A stretch of 64,000 bases of DNA. Source: a virus. Below, one piece after another: positions 36,584 to 53,795 of this stretch (its first letter is position 1; every line of letters starts with the position of its first letter). The notes beneath the pieces were generated by a model. The model was not told the origin of the DNA. It was given only the letters and a program-made list of their open reading frames with translations, and made no database searches. The stretch is from the IMG/VR virus record IMGVR_UViG_3300009176_000030, positions 1-64,000 of that record. The stretch is one strand, 5' to 3'. A program made the translations under genes and the position numbers.

Positions 36584-37570
36584 TTAGACCACGTCGGCCC
36601 GGCGGGCCACGATGCGGAGGCAGTTCTCGCAGGACTTCCCGGCCGGGAGTTTGGCGACGACATCGCCGTAGATCACCCGGCCGCACATCGTCTTGTACCT
36701 GTTCTCGACGCGCGCCGGGCTGGCAATGGCGTGCCACGATCGGCCGAGGACCCACTTGATGTCCTTGATCGGCTTCTTCTTCTTGCGGAACTCGCAGCCT
36801 TCGTCCACGAGGCGGCGCATCTGCGACGGGTTGCGGGTCGCCCGGTTGTAGGCATTCGACAGTTCGTCGTTGCGGGCAGCGTCCTGACCCGACCAGGCGC
36901 GTGTCTTGTAGTTCTTGCCGATGACCGGGTGCCACAGGTGGAGCACATCGTTCTGGGTGGTCTTGTGCTTGCCGTACAGCGTGTCCAGCGCCCGCAGGAT
37001 CGCGACATCCTCGCCGCCCCAGCCCTTGAACCGCTCGTCGAAGCAGCCAAGGACCTCCAGCGCCTCGCGCGGGAAGATGGTCACCATGGCGCCGTAGCGA
37101 TGGCCGTAGCCGCTTTTCATGCCGTCGCCATCGAGATCGCCGGGCAGCGGCGGTGACGGGAACCGCAAGGGATCGGACGGCTTGGACGCGAGGACCCGCT
37201 GCGTCGCACCCCGGTTGAGCCGGTAGAGGTGACGGTACGGGACGTACCACAGGTGGTTGGCGAGTTCTTCGAGGATGCGGTCGGCGCAGCGGTCGAGGAT
37301 GGAACCCGGCATGTAGGTATCGGCGTCCAGCACCACGAGGACCCGACCACGGGCGCGGCTCGCGGCATCGTTGAGCGCTTCGGTCTTGCAGAACGGCCTG
37401 CCACGGCTCTTGCCGATGATGATCTCGGCATCCGGTAGTTCGCGCTTCCAGTAGCGGCGCACCCACGCGAAGGCTCGCTGGCGCTCCTTGTTGTCCGACC
37501 GGAACGGGATGAGCAGGCTCATCTTCGGTCGGCGCGGATGCGGCTTGGGAGGCTTTACCGGCTTAGGCAC
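36584..37570 (-). CDS. GT-A glycosyltransferase with C-terminal zinc-ribbon-like tail
   Basis: A 328-residue protein. SLLIPFRSDNKERQ starts the GT-A fold, VVLDADTYMPG holds the DxD metal site and FKGWGGEDVAILRA is the galactosyltransferase-type acceptor loop. The last 50 residues (WHAIASPARVENRYKTMCGR, later CENCLRI) form a Cys-based module resembling the free-standing protein encoded at 61979. It may transfer a sugar to a virion or wall component. It sits among head genes and overlaps the pyruvyltransferase gene by eight bases. Confidence 0.8.
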   Translation of the reverse strand: MPKPVKPPKPHPRRPKMSLLIPFRSDNKERQRAFAWVRRYWKRELPDAEIIIGKSRGRPFCKTEALNDAASRARGRVLVVLDADTYMPGSILDRCADRILEELANHLWYVPYRHLYRLNRGATQRVLASKPSDPLRFPSPPLPGDLDGDGMKSGYGHRYGAMVTIFPREALEVLGCFDERFKGWGGEDVAILRALDTLYGKHKTTQNDVLHLWHPVIGKNYKTRAWSGQDAARNDELSNAYNRATRNPSQMRRLVDEGCEFRKKKKPIKDIKWVLGRSWHAIASPARVENRYKTMCGRVIYGDVVAKLPAGKSCENCLRIVARRADVV

Positions 37571-38306
37571 GGGCCATGGTGAAGATCGCCTTCACCTCCT
37601 CCAAGACATCGAACAGTTCGTACTGCTTCTCCATGACGACGTTCCTGTCCGCCTGCTCGGTGACGCCGATCTGGAACGGCATGTGCAGGCTCGCGGTGTA
37701 GTCCAGCCACTTGAACAGCCCTCCCTCCTGGTGTTCGTGACTCAGTGCCCGCGGCGAGATTTCGATGCGGCGAGGGATGCTGAAGGCGTCGGCGAGGACG
37801 ATGCCGTGGAGCGACGAGGAGACGATCTTCTTGCAGCGCCCGATGTCGCGGATGACTTCGAGCGGGTCTCCGGTGACACGGATGATCTTTGGGTTGAACT
37901 TGGTGAACCGAGGGTCGTGCTCCAGCGTCGTGTCCGTCCAGTGGGGGATGAGCCCCAGGTTGTAGCGCTTGTCCTCGACCTTGACCAGTTCGTCGGCCAG
38001 CAGGCCCGGATCGGCCAGGACGAAATCGCCCCTCAATCCCTGCGCCGACAACGGCCCTCGAACCGCGAGGACGACGGCGTTGGGCAGTGACAGTTTCGTC
38101 CTCGCGTGGAGCAGCCCGGCGCCCGCGATCACGCCGCCCCAATCCGAGGGAAGCTGGTCGAGGACTGAGCCAGCCATCACCAACTCGGCGTCCTCGGGCG
38201 CGGCCCACTCCGAGGTCAGGCGCATGAACCGCGTGAGGATGAGCCCGGTCAGGGCGTCTCCGAAGTTGGGCCTGCCTTTCCAGAAGTAGGTCTTGACCGG
38301 CTTCAT
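37563..38306 (-). CDS. Polysaccharide pyruvyltransferase family protein
   Basis: A 247-residue protein. WKGRPNFGDALTGLIL at the start and KKIVSSSLHGIVLADAFSIP (with its SSLHG signature) are diagnostic of the family that adds ketal pyruvate to glycans or makes related transfers. It is shorter than bacterial members, which is common in phages. Coupled to the following GT-A gene, suggesting they act on the same glycan. Confidence 0.85.
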   Translation of the reverse strand: MKPVKTYFWKGRPNFGDALTGLILTRFMRLTSEWAAPEDAELVMAGSVLDQLPSDWGGVIAGAGLLHARTKLSLPNAVVLAVRGPLSAQGLRGDFVLADPGLLADELVKVEDKRYNLGLIPHWTDTTLEHDPRFTKFNPKIIRVTGDPLEVIRDIGRCKKIVSSSLHGIVLADAFSIPRRIEISPRALSHEHQEGGLFKWLDYTASLHMPFQIGVTEQADRNVVMEKQYELFDVLEEVKAIFTMARA

Positions 38307-38320
38307 CGATCCCCCCGTTG

Positions 38321-39226
38321 TTAGGCAACGCTTCCGATCGCAAATCCTGTCAGGAGTGACGCGGCGGGACCGGGGATGGTCACCCCGTTCTTGGTCACAT
38401 AGCCGCCGGGGTTCATCTGCGTGATCGCGACTTCGGCCACGCGGACGCTCTGGAGCCCGATCATGCCGCGCTGGGCGATGCGCGACTGGCCGAGCATGTC
38501 GGTCGCGATGATCGAGGTCGCCGTCTCGATGGCCGACGGCAAGGTGTACGTGTACGAAACCGTCGCCAGATCGTCGGGCACCGGTTCGGCGGCATCGGTG
38601 AAGGTGATCGTCCCGTCATCGGTGTTGACCGTGTAGTCCGACGGATCGATCTCGACACCGGCCACCGTGACCGTCACGTCGCCGCCTTCGAGCCAACTGC
38701 CATGGCTTGCCATGTAGAGGTTCGGACTGACGGCTTCGAGCACGTCCTCCGTGGATGTGAACTGCCAGCCGTAGGTGTAACTGGTCAGGGTGAACGGCTC
38801 GTACAGACCGAACCAGAAACCGAGCGGCGGGTAGCCGATGATCGTCGGCTGGCTGGCGACGATCTCGACGAAGCCCGAGGTCGAGTTGACCATCAGGTCG
38901 GATGGCTGAAGGGTGATCGAGTACGAGTTGGTGTACTGGATCGAGAACGCCGTCAGGGTTCGGATCGGGCGGTGGGAGAGGAACACCCGGCGCGCGCCCG
39001 GCTCGTTGAGGAGCGGGCTCGGCGGCTGCCAGATGTGCTGCTCGTTGGTGATCGTGCCGCCCCGGAAGTCGTGCTTCTGGGGCTGGAGCCCGGCGTTGCA
39101 GAAGGTATCGACCACGGCCGACGCTGCGACGAGTTTGTTGCGCAGCGACAGTTTCGTGCCGGTGTCAGCGATGCCAAATCCGCCGTGGATGTAGCGGAGG
39201 GGACTGACGTAACTTTGCAAGGCCAT
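38321..39226 (-). CDS. Head-tail adaptor candidate with added beta domain
   Basis: A 301-residue protein, first gene after the capsid gene apart from the rightward unit. It has an N-terminal mixed region, then a long beta region; GVEIDPSDYTVNTDDGTITF belongs to a small beta module also seen at the C-termini of the tail-tip proteins at 22457 and 24025. The last 70 residues are helical with QSRIAQRGMIGLQSVRVAEV. ATG at 39226 is chosen for GGAAGGAGAG upstream. The connector role is by position. Confidence 0.55.
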   Translation of the reverse strand: MALQSYVSPLRYIHGGFGIADTGTKLSLRNKLVAASAVVDTFCNAGLQPQKHDFRGGTITNEQHIWQPPSPLLNEPGARRVFLSHRPIRTLTAFSIQYTNSYSITLQPSDLMVNSTSGFVEIVASQPTIIGYPPLGFWFGLYEPFTLTSYTYGWQFTSTEDVLEAVSPNLYMASHGSWLEGGDVTVTVAGVEIDPSDYTVNTDDGTITFTDAAEPVPDDLATVSYTYTLPSAIETATSIIATDMLGQSRIAQRGMIGLQSVRVAEVAITQMNPGGYVTKNGVTIPGPAASLLTGFAIGSVA

Positions 39227-39308
39227 CACGCACTCTCCTTCCGCGCAGTTTTGTGCTCGACTGCCCACGATCGATGCGCGGCAGATGACCGCTAACGAGG
39301 AGAGTCAG

Positions 39309-39473
39309 ATGGCAGAGAAGAACGAGTTTCAGAAGCAGGCCGACAAACAGGCCGAGTCCGTCAAGGATATCCCTGCTCATAGCAACGAGCAGGCCGTGAC
39401 CCGCGACACGACCCCGTCGGTCGAGCGCCCCGGCCACGAGACGGAGCATCCCGATCGGCCGAAGGTGCAGTGA
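39309..39473 (+). CDS. Small hydrophilic protein, first gene of a rightward unit
   Basis: A 54-residue, very polar protein (MAEKNEFQKQADKQAESVKD) with no hydrophobic core, probably disordered. GAGGAGAG lies just upstream of the ATG at 39309; an alternative in-frame ATG at 39285 lacks one. It runs against the surrounding late genes and is coupled to the next gene by TGATG. Confidence 0.55.
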   Translation: MAEKNEFQKQADKQAESVKDIPAHSNEQAVTRDTTPSVERPGHETEHPDRPKVQ

Positions 39474-39718
39474 TGCCGACCGCGACGAAGCAGCAGCACA
39501 AGACCAGCAAGACCCAGTCGAGCACTGACGGCAAGTCCGCCACCGACAACGTGTTCGGTCTCGACGACGAGACGTGGACCCGGCTGAAGCAGCAAGCCGC
39601 CCAGTCGGGGGTCTCGACCTCCGACATGATGAAGCAGTACATCGTCAACGCGATCGGCGCCCCGGCGCCCGAAGGCGCTTGGCATTCAGGCCAGGAGACT
39701 GATCCCAGCCTGAAGTAA
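39473..39718 (+). CDS. Ribbon-helix-helix-like small protein
   Basis: An 81-residue protein with a polar N-terminus and a core NVFGLDDETWTRLKQQAAQS followed by GVSTSDMMKQYIVNAI, which fits a beta-strand plus two helices of the RHH/CopG DNA-binding fold. It is the only DNA-binding-regulator-like protein seen in the window. It ends just before a strong terminator. A regulator of late genes or a moron-type passenger are both possible. Confidence 0.6.
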   Translation: MPTATKQQHKTSKTQSSTDGKSATDNVFGLDDETWTRLKQQAAQSGVSTSDMMKQYIVNAIGAPAPEGAWHSGQETDPSLK

Positions 39719-39773: not shown

Positions 39774-39775
39774 GT

Positions 39776-39865: not shown

Positions 39866-41191
39866 CTACGAGGTGGCCTGGTTGGCCCGGAGCTTCACGT
39901 TGTACGGAAGCGACGTGACCGCGAGGCCGACCATGTAGTAGATGATGAACAGCCGAGTGAGTTGGCCGTTCACGCCCGGCGGAATCTCGATCACGGTCGG
40001 ACCCGGCGAACCGAGGTACGGCATCGTGACCGTGGACTCGTTGAGGACGTAGATGTCGGCGACCGTCTCGCCGCCATTGAAGGGGCCGTCACTGTTGGTG
40101 GTGACGTAGGTCCCGATCGAGTCGCCCGGCACCGTGACGAGCGGAAGCTCACCCTGGTTGGTCATCACCGCGGGGACGCGGACGCCCGGCACGAACTCCA
40201 TGCGATCGACGGTCCGCTGGATCGTCAACTGCGCATTGGCGAACTGCTGGCCTTCTGCGGCGCGAGCGAAGATCACCGTGGGCGGAACACCGACGGCGTC
40301 GGTGATCGCCGTGGCAGCCTCGCCGAAGGCGATGTTGAACGAGTTGGGGTTGCTGGTGAGATACGGGCTGAAGTTGACGGCGCCCGTGATGTTGAGGATC
40401 GAGCGCAGCCCGGTGAAGCCGTTGGCGTCATAGGCGCCAGCCTCACTGTTCGAGGTCCCACCGGAGTTCGACGCATTGCCCTGGAAGATCGTCTTCTGAG
40501 TCTTGTGCGCCATCGCGATGAGACCGTTCTGGATTTCAAGCTGCTGCGGGTTCCACGACATGCCGCCCGCCTGCACCGCGAACTGCTCCTTGAACGACAC
40601 GCCTCGGCGGGTGTTCTGGATGGCGATGTTCGTGGTCTGCGGGACGTAGGTCGAGTTGTCGTCCGTGACAGTCCCCAGTTCCGCCATGAACACCGCATCA
40701 CCATAGGCGGTGATCTGGCGCCATGCGTGGACGGCGCCGTTGGCAGGCACCTTGGGGATGCGATCGTAGGCGGGGAACGCCTTGACGAACTGGGTGTAGA
40801 GGATCGGGTCGAGGTCCTGCCGGACCAGCGCCGAGCCGCCCGACAAGTCGAGCAGGTTGGTCAGCACCGGGTCGTCGCCAGCGATGTCCATGAGCCCGCG
40901 GCTTCCGGCCATCCACTGAGCGATCGGCACGCCCTTGGCTTCCTTGGACCCGAGTTGCAGGTAGAACAGGTGCGCAAGCTCCTGCTCCGACAGGCCCATC
41001 ATGCCGCGCTGGAGGAAGATGCGATCCTCCTCGTTCAGCACGCCCCGCAGCGACGGCTGCGTGGTGCTCGTCGGGGCTTCCTCCCCGGCCGCCCTGAGCG
41101 CCGCGCCAGAAACGGCAACGTCGTTCGTTCGATCGAACGTCGTGCCGAACTGGTCGAGCGCGTTCAGGACGTTTTTGAGGTCATAACTCAT
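39866..41191 (-). CDS. Major capsid protein, HK97 fold
   Basis: A 441-residue protein directly after the protease gene (ATGA overlap), where the capsid gene belongs. After a short N-terminal helix, ILYTQFVKAFPAYDRIPKVP and an E-loop-like GVSFKEQFAVQAGGMSWNPQ are followed by a P-domain helix region (QTKNQ-type LIAMAHKTQKTIFQGN) and a C-terminal beta part. No large delta domain is visible; the protease-linked acidic region upstream probably provides scaffold. Confidence 0.85.
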   Translation of the reverse strand: MSYDLKNVLNALDQFGTTFDRTNDVAVSGAALRAAGEEAPTSTTQPSLRGVLNEEDRIFLQRGMMGLSEQELAHLFYLQLGSKEAKGVPIAQWMAGSRGLMDIAGDDPVLTNLLDLSGGSALVRQDLDPILYTQFVKAFPAYDRIPKVPANGAVHAWRQITAYGDAVFMAELGTVTDDNSTYVPQTTNIAIQNTRRGVSFKEQFAVQAGGMSWNPQQLEIQNGLIAMAHKTQKTIFQGNASNSGGTSNSEAGAYDANGFTGLRSILNITGAVNFSPYLTSNPNSFNIAFGEAATAITDAVGVPPTVIFARAAEGQQFANAQLTIQRTVDRMEFVPGVRVPAVMTNQGELPLVTVPGDSIGTYVTTNSDGPFNGGETVADIYVLNESTVTMPYLGSPGPTVIEIPPGVNGQLTRLFIIYYMVGLAVTSLPYNVKLRANQATS

Positions 41192-42444
41192 TCCTTCTCC
41201 TTGGTGGACCGTGCGATGTATGCGGTGACGCGGGGATCGAGACCCGGATAGCGAGCCGTGAACTCCTCAACGTGCCCGACCGCCTGACGGCGAAGGGGCA
41301 GTTGCATGACCCTCTTGATCGCTTCCGTGGCGTCCTTCTCCACGTCTGAGAGCCGGTCGTAGCCCGCCTTGACCTCTTTGAGTTCGTCCTTCAGGCTCGC
41401 GTTTTCATCACGGAGCCGTCCGACTTCCTCGACGAGTGCCTTGGTGTGCGCGACCAGCGCTGCCACATCCTCGACCTCGACGCCTGCTTGCTGCTCGATG
41501 ACAGGGTCAGCATCGTCTTCGGTCGCGGGCGCTGTCTCAGGGGTCGCCGCATCGGCTTCCTGACCACCCGGAGTGGTGTCGTCTTCGGTGGCGTCCGCAG
41601 ACGCCTCGATGGTGGGTTCGTCTGTGGTGGTTGATTCTACGGGTTCGCTAGGCGTGGCAACGATCTCGGGCTCGACACCGCCGCCAACGACTACCGGCTC
41701 GGGCGAGACAGTGCCGCCGCTGGAGATCGTGATCGTCGTGCCGGTGTCAGAGCCAGACGCCGAGGTGGTCGGCTTCACGACCCACTGCTGGAGGACTTCG
41801 CCATTGGCGGCGACGACCTGCTCCTCGGCGGGCTCCTCGGGCTCGTCGTCGGCCAGGGCTTCGTCTTCGGGCACGTCAGCCGCGGCGACGGACGCCTTGT
41901 AGGCCCACGAGCGCTGGTTCTTGGGAATGCCCACGATGGACGCCTCCTTGCCGACGATGCTGTCGATGAGCATCCCGCCGGTATCCTTGTCGCGGCTGTG
42001 CTTCTTGACGATCGCGCCGATCGAGGTGCCGAACTTCACGTAACCACCTGCAATGGACTCGTGCAACTGGACGGCCCGCGGGTTGGGCTCGTTGACCACG
42101 CCGCCGATGACGAGGTCCCAGATCGGGGCATTGGTCCGCTCGTCCTTGGCTTCGGTCTGGACGATCTCGGCGGTATCGGATGTGCCGAAGACCTTGTCCA
42201 CGACGTTCGTGTAGTCGTGGTCCATGAAGATCGTCAGACCGTTGCGGAAGTCATCACGCAACTGCTGAAGCGCCTTCAGGCTGATGGTGTTGCCCGCGAG
42301 GTCCGTGACCGTCGATGAGGCAACCGCCTTGAACCTGCGAGGCGCGTTGTCCTGCCCGCCATCAGCGGTCAGGGCGTTGGTGATGAAACGAAACTCTCCG
42401 GGGGCGAGCGGCGGCATCTTCGGAGCCGCCTGGGGTCCTGCCAT
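41188..42444 (-). CDS. Prohead protease with scaffold-like extension
   Basis: A 418-residue protein. Residues 1-190 are an HK97-type protease: FMDHDYTNVVDKVFGTSD carries the catalytic His, GGYVKFGTSIGAIV the Ser, and EASIVGIPKNQRSWAYKA the final strand. Residues about 190-330 are acidic and low in complexity; about 330-385 form a coiled coil (VEEVGRLRDENASLKDELKE). This is a fusion of protease and scaffold in one chain. The start is ATG at 42444 with AAAGGAG upstream. Confidence 0.8.
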   Translation of the reverse strand: MAGPQAAPKMPPLAPGEFRFITNALTADGGQDNAPRRFKAVASSTVTDLAGNTISLKALQQLRDDFRNGLTIFMDHDYTNVVDKVFGTSDTAEIVQTEAKDERTNAPIWDLVIGGVVNEPNPRAVQLHESIAGGYVKFGTSIGAIVKKHSRDKDTGGMLIDSIVGKEASIVGIPKNQRSWAYKASVAAADVPEDEALADDEPEEPAEEQVVAANGEVLQQWVVKPTTSASGSDTGTTITISSGGTVSPEPVVVGGGVEPEIVATPSEPVESTTTDEPTIEASADATEDDTTPGGQEADAATPETAPATEDDADPVIEQQAGVEVEDVAALVAHTKALVEEVGRLRDENASLKDELKEVKAGYDRLSDVEKDATEAIKRVMQLPLRRQAVGHVEEFTARYPGLDPRVTAYIARSTKEKE

Positions 42445-42467: not shown

Positions 42468-43685
42468 TCAGACCGCGACCTTGATGGGGATTTCCTTGGG
42501 GAGAAAGCCGATCTCTCTCGCCCGTTCGACTTCTCTCTCGATAGCCGCCGCCATTCGATCGGCGGCGATGTCCCAACTGAACTTGGCCGCCTGGGCGACG
42601 GCCTTCTCGCGGAGCTTCCGGCGGGAGCCTGCTCCGAGATACAAACGCTCGATGGCCTCGGTGAATGCCGAGATGTCCGGCAGGCATTGGTCCTGACCCA
42701 TCGGGGTAGTGATTCGCATCAACGGCGGGATCAGGATTCCACCGTCGCCCACGACCTCGGTTGTCGCCGAGCAGTCGGTCGCGATGACCGGCGTCCCCGC
42801 GGCCATGGCCTGGAGGTTGTTGAGCCCGAAGCCTTCGCCCCAACTGGTCGAGACGAAGATGTCCGCGGCGGAAAAGAGCGTCGCAAGAGCTTCCTCGTTC
42901 CAGCCGACGTAACCGGTGAGATTTTGGCTGAACGACACCCGATCTCGGATGTCCTCATCGTTGAAGCGCAGGGCATCGAGGTCGTAGCCATCGTCCGCTC
43001 GGTTGGCGCAATGGAAGTGAACGTCGATGTCCTTGTGGCGGCGCAGGATCGGCCGGAGGGCCTTCCACGTCGCCGGGTAATCCTTGCGCAGGCTGTTCTT
43101 GTCCACGCGCAGGATGAGGAAGCGGTCGGGGTCGTAGCCGAGCAGTTCCTTGGATTGCTTCTTGTCGCGCGGACGGAAGACACTGGTGTCCACGCCATGC
43201 CAGATCACGTCGGCCTCGGTCATCGAGGTGTCGCGGCCGAACTTCGTCATGGCGATCCGCAGCACCCGGCCAATGAGTACATCCCACGAGCCGGGGTTGT
43301 CGTAGCCGTCGATGGGCATGTACGCGACGATCGGAACACGGTAGACATCCGTCCCGGTCGTCACCCCGCGCCAGATCGCCAAGTTCTCGTCGAACGGACT
43401 GGCGAGCAGGCTGTCTCTGACCACGGCGGGATCGTTGATGAACACGATGACATCCGGCATCAACGCCCCAACCAGTTCGATGTAGCGGCTCTTGCCGTAC
43501 AGGTCGGGCTGCAACTTCTGGGTCGGCAGGTAGAGCTTCTGCGGCGTGTCCCAGTGGTCGCCGCGCCAGTTGATCGCCAGCGTGTGGATGTCCCACCCTC
43601 GGTTGGCGAGCCGGTCGAAGATGTTTTGCGTGACCGTCCCGAAGCCCGAGTGGACGGCCATGTCTGCGATGACGAGAACCCTCAC
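42468..43685 (-). CDS. GT-B (GT4-like) glycosyltransferase
   Basis: A 405-residue protein. VRVLVIADMAVHSGFGTVTQ begins the first Rossmann half; FVSTSWGEGFGLNNLQAMAA and GTPVIATDCSATTEVVGDGG are the EX7E-type donor-binding region of GT4 enzymes. GTG at 43685 follows AGAGGGAG. It lies between the heptad-repeat fibre gene and the protease gene, so its substrate is likely made nearby in time and place. Confidence 0.9.
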   Translation of the reverse strand: MRVLVIADMAVHSGFGTVTQNIFDRLANRGWDIHTLAINWRGDHWDTPQKLYLPTQKLQPDLYGKSRYIELVGALMPDVIVFINDPAVVRDSLLASPFDENLAIWRGVTTGTDVYRVPIVAYMPIDGYDNPGSWDVLIGRVLRIAMTKFGRDTSMTEADVIWHGVDTSVFRPRDKKQSKELLGYDPDRFLILRVDKNSLRKDYPATWKALRPILRRHKDIDVHFHCANRADDGYDLDALRFNDEDIRDRVSFSQNLTGYVGWNEEALATLFSAADIFVSTSWGEGFGLNNLQAMAAGTPVIATDCSATTEVVGDGGILIPPLMRITTPMGQDQCLPDISAFTEAIERLYLGAGSRRKLREKAVAQAAKFSWDIAADRMAAAIEREVERAREIGFLPKEIPIKVAV

Positions 43686-43696: not shown

Positions 43697-46513
43697 CTAT
43701 CTGCTGCGCACCGTCACCGGGATGGGAACGGCGGTCGTCTGCCGAGACTGGTCGCTGAACACGACGAGGAACTGTGCCTGGCATTCCCCGTCGAAGTCGA
43801 GGTCTTCTGGCTGGAGTTCGTAACTGACCGTGCCCGCCGCTGCGCTGATGATGTCGCACTCGGCGTTGATCCGGTAGCGCCGGTCCGAGATCAGGCGCAA
43901 CTGGAAGAACACGGTGGCGTCGGTCAGGTTGACCGGATCGCCGGTCACGGTGTCGGTCAGGGCGGCCTGGATGAGGGGCGCGGTGTCGTTCTCGACGAGG
44001 ATGTCTGTCACGGCCTCCCCATTCACGGTGATGTGCGCGCTGATGGACGGGATTGTGACCGCCGCCACGATTCGCCGTGCGATGACAGTGATGGCCCCAG
44101 CGATCGTCGCGAGATTGAGCGTCGCCGCCTGCTGGCGGATGGTCACCGCAGCCGAGAATGCCGCGATCGTGATCGTCGCGCCGATCGCGTGGATCGTCTT
44201 GATGAGCGCCGAAACGGTCTCGGTGATCGTCGGGATGCTGTCGGCCAGCGTCCGCACGAACGTTCCGACTCGCGCCACCGTCTCGGAGATGGCCGAGATG
44301 GAGTCCGAGACGAAGCGGTTGACGATGACGACCCGGTTGACCGACTCGCTGATGGAGGCGATGGAGTCCGAGACCGTACGGACGATCGAGGTGAAGACCT
44401 GGGCGACCACGGCTTCCGTGATCGAGACGATGGAGTCGGCGGCCGTACGGGTGGCGGTGAGGACTCGTACGGCCGCCTCGGAGATTGCTGAGACCGCATC
44501 TGCCGCGGACCGATTGAACGTGGCAACGCGGCTGACGGACTCGGTGATCGCGCTGATCGAGTCGGACACCGTCCGAGTGATGGCCGCGAGCGATGCCGCG
44601 ACCTGCTCGGTGATGGCTGAGATCGAGTCGGCGACTGTGCGACTGAACGTCGCGGCCCGAGCGACCGCCTCCGAGATGGAGGGCAGGCTGTCGGCCTGTG
44701 TGCGGACGTAGGTCGCCACCCGGCTGACCGAGTCCGCGAGGCTGGTCACGCTGTCGGCCACGGAGCGGGCCGCAGTGAGGGCGCGAGTGACCGTCTCCGT
44801 AATCGTTGCGACGGTATCAGATACCGCCCGGCTGGCGGTCAGGGTACGACTGGCCGACTCAGTGATCGTACTGATGGAGTCGCTGACAGAACGAACGAAG
44901 TCGGCCGTCGTCGCGACGACCGATTCAGTGATCGATCCAAGCGTCTGCGACACGGTGCGGACGTAGGCAATCGCCGCCCGCACGACGGTTTCGGTGATGG
45001 ATGACAGGCTATCGGAGACTGCACGAGCGAGGGTTACCACCCGTGTCGCCGATTCAGAGATAGCACTCAGGCTGTCGGCGGATGTTCGCGTGCCAGTGAA
45101 AACCCTGACGACGCTATCCGTCAAGGTGCCGATAGAGTCGGCAACGGTCCGCGGCAACGAGAGAACGCGAGTGACGGCCTCAGTGAGCGTCGAGAGGCTG
45201 TCGGACGAGGTCCGGCTGCCGGTCCACGCCCGGCTGACGGTTTCCGTGATCGAGGAGAGCGTGTCCTGCGCGCTGCGGATGATGAACAGCGCGCCGTGAA
45301 CGACCGCCTCGGTGATGAACGAAACGCTGTCGGCCATGGTGCGAGCGAAGGTCCCGACCCTGGTCACAGCCTCGGTCAACGTCGGTAGCGAGTCGGCCGT
45401 TGTCCGAGCAAACGTGAGGACTCGCGTGACCGACTCCGTGATGGAGCCGAGCGTCTGGCTGACCGTCCGGGCGAACGTCCCAACCCGAGTCGGCGATTCA
45501 GTAAGCGTCGAGATCGAGTCGGCCACTGCGCGCGCTAGGCTCAGAACCCGCGTGACGGCTTCGGTGATCGACGAGAGTGAGTCCGCGACCGTCCGGCTCC
45601 CAACAAACACTCGGGTCACGGACTCTGTCAGGGTCGCAAGGCTGTCGGCAACAGTACGGATCAGCGAGAGAACTCGCGTCACCGCCTCGGTCAAGGTAGC
45701 GATGGAGTCAGCGACGGTCCTGTTGTAGGTGATCGTCCGGGCCACGGACTCGGTGATCGAACCGAGGGTCTGGGCCACGCTTCGGACGAACGTCCCGACT
45801 CGGGCCACGGCGTCGGAGATCGAACTCAGGCTATCCGCCGATGTTCGGGTCCCAGTGAAGATGCGCGCCACCGCTTCGGTGAGCGTTGCCAGACTATCGG
45901 CGCCGGTCCGCGTGAAGTTCATCGCCGCGCGGACGACGGCTTCCGTCAGGGTTGCCAGCGAGTCGGCTGCGGTCCTAGTTCCGGTGAAGACCCGTGCGAC
46001 CGTGTCGGTGATCGAGGAGATGCTGTCGGCAATCGTCCGGGTGACGGTCATGGCCGCCCGGACAACGGCTTCGGTCAGGGTAGCGATGGAGTCAGCGACG
46101 GTCCGGGCATAGGTGGCAACACGAGCGACAGATTCAGTTAGCGTGGCGATGGAATCGGCGGCCGTTCTGGTGCCCGTGAAAACCCGCGCCACCGTTGCGG
46201 TGATCGAGGAAATGGAGTCGGCGACGGTGCGAGGAAGCGTGAGCACCCTCGTCACAGCCTCGGTCAGGGTGGGCAAGCTGTCGGCGCCCGTACGAGCACC
46301 CGTGAAGACACGAGTCGCGGCTTCGGTCAGGGTGGCGATCGTCTCGCTGATCGTCCGAGAGAACGTGCCGACCCGGCTCGTGCTGTCGGTGATTGACGAG
46401 AGGCTGTCCGACGCGGTCGCGTTGAAGTTATTGCCGGTCGGGAGCGCCGGGATGACCGACGGCTTGGGCTGTTGCGGTTGAGGCGGGTGACGAAAGAGGC
46501 CGCGGCCCGCCAC
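43697..46513 (-). CDS. Long heptad-repeat fibre protein with C-terminal baseplate-like domain
   Basis: A 938-residue protein. Residues about 32-775 are about 35 tandem copies of a 21-residue unit such as TVADSISSITATVARVFTGT followed by R. Within each unit hydrophobics fall at positions 2, 6, 9, 13, 16 and 20, an exact heptad a/d pattern with three heptads per repeat, so a long coiled coil is predicted, of the order of 110 nm if fully helical. Seven or so units have one or two extra residues that would act as skips. Each repeat is rich in Ser and Thr. The C-terminal 110 residues (VTDILVENDTAPLIQAALTD, then VFFQLR) resemble a BppU-like beta domain. Confidence 0.75.
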   Translation of the reverse strand: MAGRGLFRHPPQPQQPKPSVIPALPTGNNFNATASDSLSSITDSTSRVGTFSRTISETIATLTEAATRVFTGARTGADSLPTLTEAVTRVLTLPRTVADSISSITATVARVFTGTRTAADSIATLTESVARVATYARTVADSIATLTEAVVRAAMTVTRTIADSISSITDTVARVFTGTRTAADSLATLTEAVVRAAMNFTRTGADSLATLTEAVARIFTGTRTSADSLSSISDAVARVGTFVRSVAQTLGSITESVARTITYNRTVADSIATLTEAVTRVLSLIRTVADSLATLTESVTRVFVGSRTVADSLSSITEAVTRVLSLARAVADSISTLTESPTRVGTFARTVSQTLGSITESVTRVLTFARTTADSLPTLTEAVTRVGTFARTMADSVSFITEAVVHGALFIIRSAQDTLSSITETVSRAWTGSRTSSDSLSTLTEAVTRVLSLPRTVADSIGTLTDSVVRVFTGTRTSADSLSAISESATRVVTLARAVSDSLSSITETVVRAAIAYVRTVSQTLGSITESVVATTADFVRSVSDSISTITESASRTLTASRAVSDTVATITETVTRALTAARSVADSVTSLADSVSRVATYVRTQADSLPSISEAVARAATFSRTVADSISAITEQVAASLAAITRTVSDSISAITESVSRVATFNRSAADAVSAISEAAVRVLTATRTAADSIVSITEAVVAQVFTSIVRTVSDSIASISESVNRVVIVNRFVSDSISAISETVARVGTFVRTLADSIPTITETVSALIKTIHAIGATITIAAFSAAVTIRQQAATLNLATIAGAITVIARRIVAAVTIPSISAHITVNGEAVTDILVENDTAPLIQAALTDTVTGDPVNLTDATVFFQLRLISDRRYRINAECDIISAAAGTVSYELQPEDLDFDGECQAQFLVVFSDQSRQTTAVPIPVTVRSR

Positions 46514-47295: not shown

Positions 47296-48111
47296 TCACT
47301 GCGCGACGAACGGTGGCATGGGGTTGACGTAGGGAAGGAACTGGCAGTTCGTCAGTCGAGCCGCGTAATGCGCTACCACCTGGCTTGGGTTCAGTGCGTA
47401 GTTGTAGATGGCAACTTCATCGATCGATCCGAACAACCACTCATCTGTCCCAGCCGCGCCGGACCCGATCTCGATGATGCCCGAGAAGGCGTTATTGAAG
47501 ATCGGAAACGGCGGATTGATGATAAGAGGTCCGGCATCTACGCCATCGATATAGAAGAAGGCGTAGGGGCCATCCTTGGTCGTAACGACATGGTGCCAGT
47601 TCGTGTCGGTGATCGTTGTCGTGGAGCTATACACGCCAGCTTCGCCACCCTGGGTCACGTTTAGGGTGTCATTCGCGCCAAAGAGAAGCGCCCATGAATC
47701 AAAGCCATTCTGGACGACCATGACCTCACCGATGGCGACAGCCGTCCGGGTTCGCTTGACCCAGCATTCGAGTGAGAAGACATCGCCTACGTTGTAGGCG
47801 GCGATGGCCGACGCCTCGGAGCGCCCACCGGGAGTGCTGAACGTGACGGCCGGGTTCGAGTCAGCGGTCAGGGCGCCGATCACGTTCAGGGTATACGTTC
47901 CGGCCAGCACCCCGTTGTTGGCGTTGGTCGAATAGTCGCGGACAGTCGTTCCCGACGTAGTGTCCATCCGCCAGTAGGCGATCGGATTATCGGACAGGAC
48001 GAGCGCCGAATAGCACGGCGAGACTTCGAGCAGGAGGACGCCTGTGCCGTCTTCCAGCAGGTAGCCGTCAGTGGCCGACGATTCCAGCAGATACCGATCG
48101 GGATTGGGCAT
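47296..48111 (-). CDS. LamG-type lectin domain protein
   Basis: A 271-residue protein. NPIAYWRMDTTSGTTVRDYS, FSLECWVKRTRTA and WHHVVTTKDGPYAFFYIDG, then GSIDEVAIYNYALNPSQV, is the concanavalin/LamG sandwich in order. The first 40 residues are a leader with a twice-repeated YLLE motif. Probably a virion surface protein that binds sugars. Confidence 0.8.
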   Translation of the reverse strand: MPNPDRYLLESSATDGYLLEDGTGVLLLEVSPCYSALVLSDNPIAYWRMDTTSGTTVRDYSTNANNGVLAGTYTLNVIGALTADSNPAVTFSTPGGRSEASAIAAYNVGDVFSLECWVKRTRTAVAIGEVMVVQNGFDSWALLFGANDTLNVTQGGEAGVYSSTTTITDTNWHHVVTTKDGPYAFFYIDGVDAGPLIINPPFPIFNNAFSGIIEIGSGAAGTDEWLFGSIDEVAIYNYALNPSQVVAHYAARLTNCQFLPYVNPMPPFVAQ

Positions 48112-48663
48112 CTACGAAACCGATGACAAGATGACCAGCGACGATGTCATCCGCTGATGCGCGGCGTTCAGGTGGGTGACGGCTGGTTGATGGAGGTGGC
48201 CCGTCTCCCGATCTAGAAGCCCTGTGATGATCGCCCAGTCGAGACGGCTCCAGTGGACCGGCTCGTCGGGCAGCGGGCAGGCTCCGAGTTTTGCCGGGTC
48301 GAACTTCGTGCAGCCAAGCTGGGTTCGGAACTGACCGAAGATGTAGTACGGGAACGCGCCCCACGCGCACTCGCACTCCCACAGTTCGCGAAGGGCGCCC
48401 GGCCACGGCAGGATGTCGTGCTCGACGATGATGAACGGCTGGCCCTCGGCCCACAGCGTACGGATCAGGCGGTCGTATGCGAAGTCGGCCGCCAGCGTGC
48501 CGTTCAGCCGCTCCCAGCGGGGACGAAAGCCCTGCATTTCAAGGTTGAGTTTCGTTGCCTTGTGAACGAGCGGTTCGCTGACATCGTTCGTGAACGGCAC
48601 GACGATGTTCGGCTGCACGTCGTCAGGATGGCTGTGGTCGCTGGCGAGCAGCAGGAACTCCAT
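48112..48663 (-). CDS. Glycosyltransferase-like protein, 183 aa
   Basis: Begins MEFLLLASDHSHPDDVQPNI; FIIVEHDILPWPGALRELWE gives an acidic E-H-D site like the DxD of GT-A enzymes, followed by WGAFPYYIFGQF and VHWSRLDWAIITG. Short for an enzyme but close in pattern to small phage glycosyltransferases. ATG at 48663 meets the end of the fibre gene. Confidence 0.6.
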   Translation of the reverse strand: MEFLLLASDHSHPDDVQPNIVVPFTNDVSEPLVHKATKLNLEMQGFRPRWERLNGTLAADFAYDRLIRTLWAEGQPFIIVEHDILPWPGALRELWECECAWGAFPYYIFGQFRTQLGCTKFDPAKLGACPLPDEPVHWSRLDWAIITGLLDRETGHLHQPAVTHLNAAHQRMTSSLVILSSVS

Positions 48664-49283
48664 CAGGCCACCTGAACCACCATGAGCGAACTCCCGGCCT
48701 TGACCGTCGAGGCTGCCGCGACCTCCGAAGCGTGGTTCAGTTGAAGATCGCCCGAGACGGTCACGATCATCGTCCCCTCCACGATCCACAGCATGTCAGA
48801 CGCGCCCGTGTCCGAGGATGCCGTCGGCCCGGCCACCTGGTTCACAGCACGCGACGCGATCGCGCTCATCAGGCCCACAGCAGCCGCGGTTGTCGCCTGG
48901 TCGGCGGCAAGGGAGGCAGCGGTCGATAGTTCCTGCGCGAAGTAGTGGTTGGCCTGGAACGTCGTCACGGTGCCCGAGTGGGTGACCGCGAACTTGACGC
49001 CGGTCGTGCTGAGTGCCGACTGGTAGCGGATCATGTACTTGAACGTGTATGTCCCAGCCCCGAGCGTCATGTCGAGGCCGGTGATCTTCGCCATCGTGGT
49101 CGTACTGTTAGCCCCAGCATCGCCTGTCAGTGCGATCACGCGCGGCAGACCGCGGGTCCGCAGATAGGTCTCGATCTGGGTGACGGTCAGCTTCTTCGAC
49201 GTGCCCGACTCGTTGATCGGAAGTTCGTTCGTTCCGGCCGCAGCAGACGCTGCGGTCAGCGCCGAGATTTTGGTATCGGCCAT
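48663..49283 (-). CDS. Fibre-like protein, 206 aa
   Basis: Begins MADTKISALTAASAAAGTNE, the usual start of phage head- or tail-fibre proteins, followed by LPINESGTSKKLTVTQIETY. The rest is Ala/Thr-rich beta sequence. It stands between the beta-helix protein and a glycosyltransferase. Confidence 0.65.
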   Translation of the reverse strand: MADTKISALTAASAAAGTNELPINESGTSKKLTVTQIETYLRTRGLPRVIALTGDAGANSTTTMAKITGLDMTLGAGTYTFKYMIRYQSALSTTGVKFAVTHSGTVTTFQANHYFAQELSTAASLAADQATTAAAVGLMSAIASRAVNQVAGPTASSDTGASDMLWIVEGTMIVTVSGDLQLNHASEVAAASTVKAGSSLMVVQVA

Positions 49284-51029
49284 CTACGGCACCAGCGGGA
49301 GACCGGCCGCCGTCAGGGCCGCAGTCGCATCGGCCTGGGTCATGTAGTTCGATCCTGTTCCACCGGGCACGGTCTGGAACGTCGCCATCGTGTGATAGCC
49401 ATTCCAGATGAAGCGCGGGTACTGGTTCTCCGAGGCCGATGAGCCGTCGGGGTTCGCATAGTAGAAGCGGTTGTTGAGTCCCCTGTTGTTACTGGCCGGG
49501 AGATAGATGATCGGCTGGTAGGTCGAACCTGCGGGCAGGCTGTATGCCCAGAACAGACCGAAGCGATCCTGACCAGCGACCATCTGCGTCTCGGCTACAA
49601 CATTGTCGTGAACGTAGTTACCGGTCACACCGGGCGAGTCGCCGCGATCCTCCTCGACCACGCTGATGCCGGTCTTGTTCCAAGCAACGGTGTTGCCGTA
49701 GACCTCGGCCGACTTTGACGTGTGGATCAGGATGCCCGCGCCCCAACCCCAAGAACCCCACGGGCCGAACCCGTTTCGATACGCGACGTTGTTGTAAATC
49801 TTCGAGGCGGTCGAGGTCTCGTCGTGGATGCCAACGGTGTCGTTATCGTGGACGCGGTTATTGCGATAGGTCGCATTAGCGCAGGAGACATCGAGCCACA
49901 GTCCGACGCCCGAGTCATACGACTCATTGCCGTCGAGCATGAGGTTGTCTTGCCCGGTGGCCTTCAGGTTGCCGCCATCGGCACCAGGATCGGGCTCGCC
50001 GGTCCGGTCGTTGTGGAACAGTTTGTTGCTGATGATGAGGTTGTGCTGCCCGCGACCGACGGTCGGGCTCGGTGCCGAAATCCGAAGGCCGAGGTGCTTC
50101 GCGTCGTGGATCGAGCAGTTGCGAATGATCGAGTCGATTGCGCCCGTCAGGTTGACATTGACGTAGGAGAAGCCGATGTCGCAGTCCTCCAGCACGAAGC
50201 GCTGGACGCCAAACGCGTTCTCAACCGAGCCCTGAACGTTGGTCCCGGCCGCGTACTGCATCTTGAAGCCACGGATCGTCACGTCGTTGCCCGTGATGTA
50301 GGCCCACGTCGGGCGCACCATGGCCCCCGACGTATCGCGCCCGTCGATGATCGCGCCCGCCTGCCCGACGAGCGTCACCGGCTTGGCGAAGCGAAGGGAC
50401 TCGCGATAGGTGCCTGCCGGAATGGTGATGGTCGCGCCTGGTGCCGCGGAATCGAGTAGCGGCTGGATGGCCGTGACTGGCGGTACCACGATCACCCCCA
50501 CGGGCGTAAGCGTGACGGAAGCGGTCTTGGGTCCCTCGCCCGCGGCGTTGACCGCCGACACGGTGAAGGCGTAGGCGGTGCCGTTGGTCAGACCGGTGAT
50601 GGTCGCGGTCAGGCCGGTCGGCGACGCTGCCAAGGTCCCGTTGCGGTAGACCCGATAGCCCGTGATCGGCGCACCACCGGTCGGGGCCTGCCACGCCAGG
50701 TTGACGACGGTGTCGCCGACGACGCCGGAGAGGGCCAGCGGCACAGTCGGCACAGTCGCGGTCGCCACAACGGCGAACGTGATGGGGCCGATCAGTGCCT
50801 TCTTGTTCGTCGAGTCGAAGACAGATGCCGTGTGGTTACTGATGGATGAGGTGGTCCCGATGGCGATCCCCGCATGGAGGGCGCCATCGAGACCGACTCG
50901 TCCCGTGAGAATGGTGGTGCCGTCAACGTGCAGGTTGATCCTCGTACCCGGCGCCAGACCGGCGACATCCGCATTGAGCGTCGCCGGGCGAGTCGTCGGG
51001 TTTGGGGTAACCGTGAGTGTCGGCATCAC
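49284..51029 (-). CDS. Ig/FN3 plus right-handed beta-helix protein (tailspike or depolymerase candidate)
   Basis: A 581-residue protein. About 1-95 form an Ig-like domain, about 96-180 an FN3 domain (VVNLAWQAPTGGAPITGYRV), and about 190-480 a right-handed beta-helix opening with ATITIPAGTYRESLRFAKPV and running through repeated VTIRGF, NLIISN and YRNNRVHD rungs. Such helices often cleave host polysaccharide. Catalytic acids cannot be fixed from sequence. It is separated from the tail-tip genes and lies among head genes, which is unusual for a tailspike. Confidence 0.75.
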   Translation of the reverse strand: MMPTLTVTPNPTTRPATLNADVAGLAPGTRINLHVDGTTILTGRVGLDGALHAGIAIGTTSSISNHTASVFDSTNKKALIGPITFAVVATATVPTVPLALSGVVGDTVVNLAWQAPTGGAPITGYRVYRNGTLAASPTGLTATITGLTNGTAYAFTVSAVNAAGEGPKTASVTLTPVGVIVVPPVTAIQPLLDSAAPGATITIPAGTYRESLRFAKPVTLVGQAGAIIDGRDTSGAMVRPTWAYITGNDVTIRGFKMQYAAGTNVQGSVENAFGVQRFVLEDCDIGFSYVNVNLTGAIDSIIRNCSIHDAKHLGLRISAPSPTVGRGQHNLIISNKLFHNDRTGEPDPGADGGNLKATGQDNLMLDGNESYDSGVGLWLDVSCANATYRNNRVHDNDTVGIHDETSTASKIYNNVAYRNGFGPWGSWGWGAGILIHTSKSAEVYGNTVAWNKTGISVVEEDRGDSPGVTGNYVHDNVVAETQMVAGQDRFGLFWAYSLPAGSTYQPIIYLPASNNRGLNNRFYYANPDGSSASENQYPRFIWNGYHTMATFQTVPGGTGSNYMTQADATAALTAAGLPLVP

Positions 51030-51036
51030 CGATCTC

Positions 51037-51900
51037 CTATCCGGCCGCAGGCAGCGTCCAGGTCCACGTCACGGCGAGCGAGTCGCCGGATGTGACCGAG
51101 GCGTCTGCGTTGAGGTTGGTGTTCGCCACGTCGATCCCTGCCGCCGTGGTGTTGGCCGCGGTAAACAGTCCGGCCTTGTGGATGTTCGCCAAGGTGGCGC
51201 CAGCCGCGAAGGTGTTGGACTGGGTGAAGGTCGTCGTGCCGCCCGTGTGAGCGAACGTCGCCTTCGCGCGGGTCAGGCCCGAGGCCGTCGTCTCCGAGGT
51301 CAGGACCGTGTCCGAGGTCGCCGGACCGGAGGTGTCGGTCGTGAGCCCGATGAACCGGGCCGGACCCATCGCCGGGACGATGATGTAGCCGTTGGTCGAG
51401 GCTGGGGTCGTGCCGGTCATGGTGTCGGCGGTCCCGACCCACCAGCCGTCCACGGTCAGGACGGTGGACGAGTTCGAGCCGATGTTGCCGTAGACCGGGG
51501 CCGTGGTCAGACCCGTCACCGGGCAGACGACGCGCATCCCCTTGTACTGGTCGGTGGTCATGCCGCCGCCCGACGGGGTGGCCGAGGTGGCGGACGAGGC
51601 GGTGAGCGCGCCGTCCTTGCCGAGCAGGCCGCCCATCGTGTTGTGCAGCCAGTCCATGCCGACGGTCGTCTTCAGATTGTGTGACCAGCCGAGATCGACG
51701 ATCTCGCCCGGCTTGCCGAACATGCCCGACGGGCCGCGCATGATGTAGGCGTGGACGAAGTTCGGGCCGAACTCCAGCTTCTCGCCCATGAACCGGCCCC
51801 TGGTAATCATCACGTTCACATCGTCATCGATGCGCTTGATGACTTCCATCTGGGAACCTGCGAGCCGCGGCTTGGGGCGGCCGAAACGAAGTAGATGCAC
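51037..51900 (-). CDS. Structural-type protein, 287 aa
   Basis: Begins MHLLRFGRPKPRLAGSQMEV; the N-terminal 90 residues include GFGPNFVHAYIMRG-type strands, and the rest is a Thr/Ser/Gly-rich beta region ending SGDSLAVTWTWTLPAAG. No family recognised. AAGGAGAAG precedes the start. Confidence 0.6.
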   Translation of the reverse strand: MHLLRFGRPKPRLAGSQMEVIKRIDDDVNVMITRGRFMGEKLEFGPNFVHAYIMRGPSGMFGKPGEIVDLGWSHNLKTTVGMDWLHNTMGGLLGKDGALTASSATSATPSGGGMTTDQYKGMRVVCPVTGLTTAPVYGNIGSNSSTVLTVDGWWVGTADTMTGTTPASTNGYIIVPAMGPARFIGLTTDTSGPATSDTVLTSETTASGLTRAKATFAHTGGTTTFTQSNTFAAGATLANIHKAGLFTAANTTAAGIDVANTNLNADASVTSGDSLAVTWTWTLPAAG

Positions 51901-51949
51901 GTTTCTTCTCCTTCTGCCGCCGCCTCAAACGGGGCCTGTCTGGGTTGAA

Positions 51950-52270
51950 CTACACGGCCACAAGAGACGTGTTTGCCACCGATGAGTCGTCGCTGGTCTT
52001 GCGGATGTGGATCGTCCACGTCCCCGAGGCAGGTGGGGTCCAGCCTTCCCACTGGCCCTTCCCGCCGTCGGGCGTGAAGACCTGGCTTCGGGCCGTGTCC
52101 TGACCGGCCAGTTCGGCGCTGAAGTAGTAGGTGACCGCCGGACTGGCGGGATAGTGCGTCGGGTCGTAGCCCGTCGAGGTGTTGGCCGGAAGCGCCGTGC
52201 TGGAGATGTGGACGGCGGTCTTCTTCGCGGTCACTGTGCTGCCGCCGTAGCGGACGGTAACGGTCGCCAT
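51950..52270 (-). CDS. Small beta-sandwich protein, 106 aa
   Basis: Begins MATVTVRYGGSTVTAKKTAV with GTWTIHIRKTSDDSSV near the end, an Ig-like sandwich. A capsid decoration or fibre subunit is plausible. ATG at 52270 has AGGAGG just upstream. Confidence 0.6.
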   Translation of the reverse strand: MATVTVRYGGSTVTAKKTAVHISSTALPANTSTGYDPTHYPASPAVTYYFSAELAGQDTARSQVFTPDGGKGQWEGWTPPASGTWTIHIRKTSDDSSVANTSLVAV

Positions 52271-52278
52271 GACTCCTC

Positions 52279-53022
52279 CTATTTGTTGGGTCTCGGCCAG
52301 GTGAGGTTTCGATAGCGCTCGGGGTCGAACCGCCAATCGCCGAGGTGGCCGCCTCGCTTGAATGGGGTGTCGAAGGTCTCGCCACCCTGCTTTTGACCGC
52401 CCCACTTCTGGGCGTAGTAGAGATCGTTCGCGCCGTGGGAGTTGCCGTTCCATGCCCGCATGGCCGGGTCGGCCATGATCGTTGCCGAGCCCTCGTGGGT
52501 GCCGGTGAAGCCGGTCTCGACCCGCGGCAACCCGGCGAGATCGATCCGGCGGGCGAAGTCAACGTCCTCGTCGTAGCCGTTGATGAAGTTCTCGTCGAAC
52601 GTCCCGACGACGTTGACGGTGTGCCGGGTGATCGCGAACGACGACATCCCGAACATGAAGTAGATGGCCGCGGCGCCGGGGTTGACCGACTCGTCCATGC
52701 TTTCCAGGTCCCCGGCGCCGAAGGTGAGATCGTGATTGACGATGAGCCACCACGGGGCGAACGGCGTGGCCCGCATCCCGAGGTTCCAACTGGTCGCGAC
52801 ACCGAGGTTGTGAGGCAGGCTGACGATTTCCACCTGACCGAGATTGGCGTTCCTTTGGCGCATGATCTCGGCCTCGCCGTCGCCCGGCAGGATGCTCCGC
52901 GCGAACAAGGCGCCGTTGTCGATGATGACGACCCTGTCGATCGGGTAGTCGATGCTGGCGAGCATCTTGTAGAGCAGTTCGGGCCGATTGAGAATCGGAA
53001 CGATGAGCGCCGGGACGCTCAT
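52279..53022 (-). CDS. GT2-family glycosyltransferase
   Basis: A 247-residue GT-A enzyme. PALIVPILNRPELLYKMLAS and VVIIDNGA open the fold, LGVATSWNLGM and WWLIVNHDLTFG give the acidic metal site, and GYDEDVDFARRIDLAGLPRV the acceptor region. It overlaps the GT gene at 53019 by four bases, so the two are co-translated. Confidence 0.9.
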   Translation of the reverse strand: MSVPALIVPILNRPELLYKMLASIDYPIDRVVIIDNGALFARSILPGDGEAEIMRQRNANLGQVEIVSLPHNLGVATSWNLGMRATPFAPWWLIVNHDLTFGAGDLESMDESVNPGAAAIYFMFGMSSFAITRHTVNVVGTFDENFINGYDEDVDFARRIDLAGLPRVETGFTGTHEGSATIMADPAMRAWNGNSHGANDLYYAQKWGGQKQGGETFDTPFKRGGHLGDWRFDPERYRNLTWPRPNK

Positions 53023-53795
53023 CGCTGGGTGATCCTAACAAAGTTGGCGAGTTGCTTGTAGAACTCGTCCTTCAGGTCCAGTTGCCGTTGCCGGGAGACC
53101 TGCGGGTCGAAATCTGGCGGTATCTCGTCCCAGCCCCAGCCCTCACCGATGGGCGCAAAGTTCTTCTTGAACTCGCCCTTCGTCATCTTGTCGCCGGGGA
53201 CCCACACGACCTTGCTGCCACACAGGCGGGCGATCTCGTTCATGGCGCTGACCGGATCGAACGAGTACATCACCCGCGACTCGTTGAGCGTCCTCGCCAA
53301 GTTCGTCCAGTCGCCGGTCAGGTGGCGGCTGATCTCGACCATGCCCTCCGGCAGCGGCCTCGTCACGGATTCCTTGCCGACCCAGTAGGTGTCGTACTTT
53401 CGTTCGAGCCCCTGGTCGTAGTAGCGGTCGAGTTCGATGGTCGGCAGGAACAGCATTCGTTCTTTCGGGAACCGTGGCGGGGTGAACATCCGCTGGAACG
53501 AGAACCATGAGCCGACCGGCTCGTAGTGGGCGTGCGCCCGGTTGAGCATCCAGCGGATGACGTTCTCGTCGGGGATGCCGGGGATCGGGTTGTTGGTGCA
53601 GATTTCCGGGTAGATCGCCAGCCAGTTCTCGTCGAACGGACCGTCGTAGTACGGGGTGTTCCACTCAGGGTTCACGCCGCGGAAGTAGACGTACGCCTCC
53701 TGCCCGGCCTCGTTGAGTTCGTGGCACAGCCGGTGCATCGTCTTCTGCCCGGCCGAGGCATCCATGTAGTCGTACGACCACACGATGTACTTCAT
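53019..53795 (-). CDS. Glycosyltransferase-like protein (GT-B type)
   Basis: A 258-residue protein. MKYIVWSYDYMDASAGQKTM and LCHELNEAGQEAYVYF fit the first half of a GT-B enzyme; MLFLPTIELDRYYDQGLERK and MYSFDPVSAMNEIARLCGSK fit the donor half. It is short for the class. Directly after the 58-codon gene and before the GT2 gene. Confidence 0.75.
   Translation of the reverse strand: MKYIVWSYDYMDASAGQKTMHRLCHELNEAGQEAYVYFRGVNPEWNTPYYDGPFDENWLAIYPEICTNNPIPGIPDENVIRWMLNRAHAHYEPVGSWFSFQRMFTPPRFPKERMLFLPTIELDRYYDQGLERKYDTYWVGKESVTRPLPEGMVEISRHLTGDWTNLARTLNESRVMYSFDPVSAMNEIARLCGSKVVWVPGDKMTKGEFKKNFAPIGEGWGWDEIPPDFDPQVSRQRQLDLKDEFYKQLANFVRITQR

Follow-up and report, generated by a model that had tools for sequence, protein, structure and literature searches.

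The most likely function that our analysis assigns to six candidate sugar enzymes encoded in the structural operon of a soil-type tailed phage is glycosylation of the phage's own virion proteins, with glycans that are exchangeable and differ between strains. The genes lie on a 64,000-base stretch of DNA (hereafter the window; genes are named after their lower coordinate) that makes up most of the 70,378-base viral contig IMGVR_UViG_3300009176_000030 from IMG/VR. Judged by their distribution among relatives, the enzymes form several layers: a constant core of two glycosyltransferases (GTs), named GT4 and GT2 after their families, an exchangeable cassette, a pair consisting of a pyruvyltransferase-like enzyme and a GT-A enzyme, and a small enzyme coupled to a fibre-type protein.

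A preliminary description of the window had named the same six enzymes and proposed virion glycosylation. All six open reading frames are in place on the minus strand; four (52279, 42468, 37563 and 36584) pass or approach the thresholds of known profiles, while 53019 and 48112 match none. Virion glycosylation is favoured because the genes share an operon with the head genes, GT4 and GT2 hold fixed places in it, look-alikes occur among the head genes of unrelated phages, and relatives carry sugar-precursor genes. The six enzymes do not, however, constitute one set: a single common pathway was considered and rejected on their distribution among relatives.

Relatives of the window

A DNA search of the window against 50,697 phage records gave no near match, and among the matches listed for its TerL none exceeds about 26% identity. 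Related viral contigs were fetched using the portal, GT-B, GT4, GT2 and 48112 proteins as queries; the major capsid protein (MCP), used as a query in viral contigs, found no match. The related contigs are G001 (15 kb), G002 (6 kb), G003 (14 kb), G004 (69 kb), L022, L023, L034-L040, L112, L114, L030 and L031, and L008 is the same virus as the window (99.995%). G001 shares about 87% DNA identity with the window over the longest aligned stretch. The window portal is 80-89% identical to those of G001-G003 and 59% identical to that of G004. Genes of the relatives were called by a simple codon-usage script and compared by BLAST.

A constant core of two glycosyltransferases

The two core enzymes and two proteins behind GT2 are as follows.

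42468..43685, minus strand: core GT4 glycosyltransferase, directly upstream of the protease (PF13692 4e-18, PF00534 3e-14)
52279..53022, minus strand: core GT2 glycosyltransferase (PF00535 3e-5, 24.3 bits against a cut-off of 23.3; phrog_29879 3e-37)
51950..52270, minus strand: small serine/threonine (S/T)-rich (27%) protein directly behind GT2, candidate acceptor, with homologues in relatives
51037..51900, minus strand: S/T-rich (22%) structural-type protein, with homologues (37-97% identical) in most relatives

For GT4 the start at 43685 was taken, as the GTG start of the longest open reading frame (43859) was judged to lie too far upstream. The enzyme contains the E-G-F-G motif, with the stretch WGEGFGL invariant across five homologues, and its nearest solved structure is chlorovirus B736L (9e-17). 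In GT2 the acid motifs NHD and YDED are conserved among homologues; the catalytic stretches of both enzymes are invariant. Pfam scans of 51950 and 51037 gave no match.

A synteny comparison, which the preliminary description had suggested, showed constant positions for these two enzymes, while the cassette, the enzyme pair and 48112 turned out to be distributed separately. GT4 stands directly before the protease in nine viral contigs (window, G001, G004, L022, L023, L034, L035, L037 and L040), and a 51950 homologue lies directly behind GT2 in nine of nine orthologues (window, G001, G002, G003, G004, L034, L040, L112 and L114). Exceptions at the GT2 place are L023, with a divergent GT2, and L039, which has another GT-like gene there and keeps GT4.

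An exchangeable cassette between 53981 and GT2

Upstream of GT2 lies a slot whose content changes from phage to phage.

54453..55985, minus strand: portal protein, upstream landmark of the cassette slot (phrog_2662/phrog_12, 1e-38)
53981..54460, minus strand: small S/T-rich (21%) protein, upstream edge of the slot, possibly a decoration protein; homologues in nearly all relatives having the slot
53019..53795, minus strand: putative GT-B-like glycosyltransferase, the cassette content of this phage, called by inspection of its sequence

The GT-B-like protein is 92% identical in G001, and other genes take its place in G002, G003, G004, L023, L039, L112 and L114. The slot holds a 291-residue protein, an NAD-dependent epimerase and a second GT2 in G002, G003 and L112. 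In G004 it comprises an epimerase, an asparagine-synthase-like (AsnB-like) protein, a candidate GT, an SGNH hydrolase, a hexapeptide acyltransferase and a GT2, a set that L034 largely matches. L023 has a DegT aminotransferase, a hexapeptide protein and a GT, L114 has GT-like genes and a methyltransferase, and L040 has a cytidylyltransferase. The Pfam matches include epimerase (1e-40 and 1e-41), Asn_synthase (2e-49), DegT (1e-74), SGNH (5e-27) and CTP_transf (9e-14), and further matches cover hexapeptide, methyltransferase and several GT families. By family, these are enzymes that make sugar precursors and modify sugars. The proposed search for precursor genes thus succeeded in relatives, at this very slot; among the non-late window proteins scanned, which do not include every small early gene, no sugar enzyme was found.

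Comparison of portal and cassette identities indicates that the cassette is exchanged as a whole block, independently of the phage backbone, since the two disagree in two cases. The portal of L112 is 55-57% identical to those of G002 and G003 and 70% identical to that of G004, yet the proteins of its cassette share 79-87% identity with their G002 and G003 counterparts and only 27-52% with the G004 ones. Likewise, the portals of G001 and G002 are 93% identical, but G001 has a cassette of the window type.

Epimerase, DegT, acyltransferase, AsnB-like and pyruvyltransferase genes are typical of bacterial surface-polysaccharide loci, and phage GTs are known from serotype conversion (PMC4691112). 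The enzymes could accordingly alter the surface polysaccharide of the host cell, either late in infection or during lysogeny, with receptor masking, superinfection exclusion or serotype conversion as the outcome. We consider this unlikely. Pfam scans of the six enzymes and of those cassettes that were scanned in relatives revealed no membrane GT, flippase or lipid-carrier enzyme and hence no gtr-type set, and there is no integrase among the scanned window proteins. Moreover, the genes are embedded among head genes, and in unrelated phages too GT4 and GT2 lie beside protease, MCP or neck genes. Hydropathy showed no clear membrane segment in any of the six (highest 19-residue value 1.67), which together with the lack of flippase and lipid-carrier genes in these scans makes a cytosolic protein the simplest acceptor, as virion glycosylation would have it.

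A pyruvyltransferase-like enzyme paired with a GT-A enzyme

Between adaptor and neck the window carries a two-gene module.

37563..38306, minus strand: polysaccharide pyruvyl transferase-like enzyme (PST), first gene of the pair (PF04230 8e-10, 39.6 bits against a cut-off of 25.3)
36584..37522, minus strand: GT-A enzyme (GT2/GT7-like) with DAD and GWGGED motifs, second gene of the pair (PF00535 1e-4, PF02709 1e-4; phrog_1721 9e-18)

The GT-A enzyme falls just under both Pfam cut-offs (22.7 of 23.3 bits for PF00535 and 21.9 of 23 bits for PF02709); it has weak PDB matches to beta-1,4-galactosyltransferases and chondroitin synthase and weak GT homologues in actinobacteriophages. PDB searches with the 37563 sequence and profiles gave no match. 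The pair is missing from its slot in G004 and L022, the two relatives that cover it, and a pyruvyltransferase search across the whole 69-kb G004 was negative as well.

Viral contigs were then scanned with a three-sequence pyruvyltransferase profile. At 28 of 28 viral pyruvyltransferase loci (contigs up to 463 kb) a GT-A gene follows 6-141 bases downstream in the same order. The two genes are adjacent in Tunturi_5 too (gp300-gp301), so that the pair occurs in many phages unrelated to one another; including the window and Tunturi_5, it forms 22 clusters at 90% identity. PF04230 is matched by all 17 scanned members of the 37563 family; NFGD, R83-G84, D99-P100 and SSLHG are conserved in the family. 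Among the GT-A partners, PF00535 is matched in 21 of 22 and PF02709 in 19 of 22, with DXD and GWGGED-type motifs conserved in at least 21 of 22. The divergence of the two proteins is correlated (r=0.83, 0 of 2000 permutations). By contrast, none of seven 37563 relatives in cellular genomes (27-46% identical) has a GT-A neighbour.

GT7 (PF02709) includes beta-1,4-galactosyltransferases. Pyruvylation by 37563 is plausible, given its membership of PF04230 and the GT7-like motif of its partner, and the pair may act by transfer of a galactose-type sugar followed by pyruvylation. Its target is the least certain among the layers because its neighbours vary: terminase and portal in L121, portal in L133, terminase in L125, endolysin in L124 and a primase-like gene in L128. 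In Tunturi_5 the pair lies outside the structural genes, near a DNA methyltransferase gene, so that it may have another target.

The neighbourhood in Tunturi_5 would fit enzymes that glycosylate (hyper-modify) phage DNA as a protection against nucleases, and phage GTs of this kind are well known (Pyle et al. 2024, as cited in PMC12619734). For the window such a function is highly improbable. It needs a hydroxylated base, but no hydroxymethylase, TET/JBP or modified-nucleotide enzyme was found among the non-late window proteins scanned (not every small gene was included), and a place among virion genes together with an exchanged sugar chemistry suits a surface better than DNA.

A separate observation concerns L123, where a GT2-like gene and a composite protein lie upstream of the pair (1791-4530); the first part of the latter matches phrog_61 (2OG-Fe(II) oxygenase) and its last part a DNA methyltransferase profile.

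The adhesin slot and the coupled genes 48112 and 48663

The adhesins and fibre named in the preliminary description are all real.

49284..51026, minus strand: Fn3 and beta-helix adhesin, exchangeable adhesin slot (PF13229 2e-20, PF00041 2e-12)
48663..49283, minus strand: S/T-rich (24%) fibre-type protein coupled to 48112, candidate acceptor
48112..48663, minus strand: putative small GT-A-like enzyme with an E-H-D motif (VEHDILPWPGA invariant in three homologues)
47296..48111, minus strand: LamG/ConA-like protein, adhesin slot (PF13385 1e-17)
43697..46513, minus strand: repetitive S/T-rich (29%) coiled fibre of 938 amino acids with a BppU_N-like C-terminal part; homologues in G001, G003, L022 and L023

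The same description had paired the enzymes with these adhesins, a claim that is mostly unsupported. In G001 the beta-helix protein, 48663, 48112 and the LamG protein are replaced by a glycosyl-hydrolase-like protein (PF11790), two secreted-type proteins and another ConA-like protein, and nevertheless GT-B, GT2, GT4 and the coiled-fibre homologue are kept. Most enzymes are therefore not tied to the adhesins. A structural gene accompanies 48112 alone: in the window, L030 and L031 it begins where 48663 or its homologue ends, the two genes overlapping or touching. Beyond the 48112 homologue, L031 carries a GT2, an epimerase and an asparagine-synthase-like gene.

Neither 48112 nor 53019 has a Pfam match even at E=10, and 53019 has no PHROG or PDB match either. 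When profiles were compared, the E-H-D stretch of 48112 aligned weakly with the N-H-D stretch of GT2 (P=0.0023, probability 12%); a corresponding comparison of 53019 with GT4 found no relation. Structure prediction, proposed earlier for all six enzymes, was run for these two and gained no fold support: AlphaFold2 models from two to three sequences had a mean pLDDT of 36 for 53019 and about 36-37 for 48112 and were useless. With neither profile match nor usable model, both assignments stay readings of the sequence.

Four layers distributed so differently, two of which (the PST/GT-A pair and 48112) occur in only part of the phages, might be unrelated passengers (morons) that have gathered in gaps where the late operon tolerates them, with a separate target for each and without any common virion glycosylation. 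We regard this as quite improbable, because GT4 and GT2 are kept wherever the relatives' contigs cover their place, except in L039 (GT2 place), L023 (divergent GT2) and L030, and because the cassette contents found belong to sugar metabolism or are GTs.

Independently of the enzymes, adhesin-slot proteins of three relatives (L009 4871-6022, L020 8858-10072 and L016 13435-14511) have an N-terminal part in common (VVAPNPAPPSTLVAVAGSGF...). The remainder varies between them (hydrolase-like, beta-helix-like), a pattern that suggests an exchange of domains on a shared anchor.

Operon layout

The remaining head and tail landmarks are listed below.

57549: TerS (profile search)
55982: TerL (profile search)
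41188..42444, minus strand: prohead protease fused to a scaffold-like part; the protease was recognised by reading the sequence, with weak profile matches to the scaffold-like part only
39866..41191, minus strand: MCP (phrog_752 1e-7)
38321: adaptor (profile search)
35231: neck (profile search)
34319: MTP (profile search)

Orthologues of the 41188 protease adjoin the MCP gene in relatives. From the end of the portal gene to the start of the protease gene we measured 12.0 kb, in agreement with the roughly 12 kb reported before. All genes from TerS to MCP lie on one strand with gaps of at most 49 bases between neighbours, and for this reason the six enzymes are very probably co-transcribed with the head genes. 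Promoter and terminator scans of the operon gave matches at or below chance.

Two small plus-strand genes (39309-39473 and 39473-39718) occupy the 639-base gap between MCP and adaptor, opposite in strand to the operon; the same place holds three small opposite-strand genes each in L022 (9535-10128) and L034 (13973-14587). The early region encodes a CbbQ/MoxR-type AAA ATPase (5779-6936) and a CobT-type VWA protein (7183-8976), with G004 homologues of 46% and 56%.

Probable virion glycosylation: scenario and weight of the evidence

GT genes linked to virion genes are found in the window and in its relatives alike. In the scenario that we favour, the phage would make its glycosylation machinery together with the particle, and glycans would be put on virion proteins in the host cytoplasm late in infection. 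GT4 and GT2 would make, or initiate, an inner glycan portion that is conserved and sits on at least one structural protein, and the cassette enzymes would supply and attach variable outer sugars. The small enzyme 48112 would act on 48663, while the PST/GT-A pair would add a galactose-type sugar and then pyruvylate it. The phage would probably gain a particle surface that can be changed, with consequences for particle recognition, adsorption and stability. Candidate acceptors are 51950, 53981, 51037, 48663 and the fibre, in which serine and threonine make up 21-29% of residues as compared to 10-15% in TerL, portal, MCP and MTP.

Several points weigh against this scenario. Composition rich in serine and threonine is common among phage surface proteins, and the acceptors stand as candidates only; similarly, GT-B for 53019 and E-H-D GT for 48112 are plausible readings, no more. 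L030, a relative by TerL and portal (portal 50%), lacks a cassette behind the portal gene, and the Tunturi_5 pair lies apart from structural genes. Alignment of TerL against bacterial and archaeal genomes found no relative and no link to a host or prophage. Several relatives were fetched by GT queries and were hence bound to carry GTs; G001-G004, fetched by the portal query, are free of this bias, and all four carry the core GT2 and a cassette.

More generally, and only tentatively, with chances that we put a little short of even, tailed phages may carry exchangeable glycan 'serotype' loci in the virion operon, in which constant core transferases are combined with horizontally swapped cassettes making different sugars. 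Near-identical phages would then show different surfaces, some with a pyruvylated (acidic) sugar from a virus-specific two-gene module. If true, phages would vary their particle surface by the swap of a gene block as bacteria vary capsules or O-antigens, with a bearing on phage ecology, adsorption and the recognition of phage particles. The arrangement also provides a simple genomic marker by which cultured phages can be found for direct glycan analysis: GT4 in front of the protease, GT2 followed by a small protein rich in serine and threonine, and a pyruvyltransferase-like gene paired with a GT-A gene.

Comparison with known systems

Similar gene orders occur in other phages. Pontimonas phage phiPsal1 has the order MCP-GT4-methyltransferase-GT2-neck and Synechococcus phage S-CBS4 the order portal-GT4-GT2-methyltransferase-...-protease, so that GT genes separate portal and protease in S-CBS4 as well. 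GT4 lies one gene behind MCP in Microcystis phage Mae-JY09, the contigs L119 and L120 have MCP-GT4-GT2, and in Tetrasphaera phage TJE1 and S-EIV1 GT4 lies outside the head genes. phiPsal1 and S-CBS4 resemble the window in having GT4 (25-27%) and GT2 (30-34%) homologues amid portal, protease, MCP and neck genes; they differ in that they have no precursor cassette beyond the methyltransferase and no pyruvyltransferase pair, and the function there is likewise putative. In L119 (8664-9323) and L120 (3428-4090), both unrelated HK97-type phages, an MptE-like protein follows GT4-GT2 (PF01973 1.6e-6 for L119, below the cut-off). Our literature search, with most subscription papers outside it, found no paper on the PST-GT pair or on precursor cassettes in phage virion operons.

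PMC11256854 and PMC12619734, citing Freeman et al. 2023, describe glycans on capsid and tail tube of mycobacteriophages and link phage-encoded GTs to these virion-protein glycans, much as we propose for the window. As far as these papers tell, the mycobacteriophages apparently use GTs only, whereas the relatives of the window add a precursor and modifying block and the window itself a pyruvyltransferase-GT pair.

Chloroviruses and mimivirus have an autonomous glycosylation with virus-encoded GTs and nucleotide-sugar enzymes, and chloroviruses glycosylate their own capsid (reviewed in PMC4691112). The likeness extends to the enzyme repertoire and to B736L as nearest structure of GT4. These, however, are eukaryotic giant viruses, in contrast to a 70-kb tailed phage with the genes inside its virion operon and swapped as a cassette; we suggest a similar way of working and do not claim common descent. 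Bacterial O-antigen and capsule loci likewise have flanks that are conserved and, between them, sugar-synthesis and transfer genes that are swapped, but here no polymerase, flippase or lipid-carrier enzymes are seen and the flanks are virion genes. The system of the window probably works like known phage virion glycosylation, to which it would add, as new elements, a block of biosynthesis genes that can be exchanged and a pair of enzymes specific to viruses.

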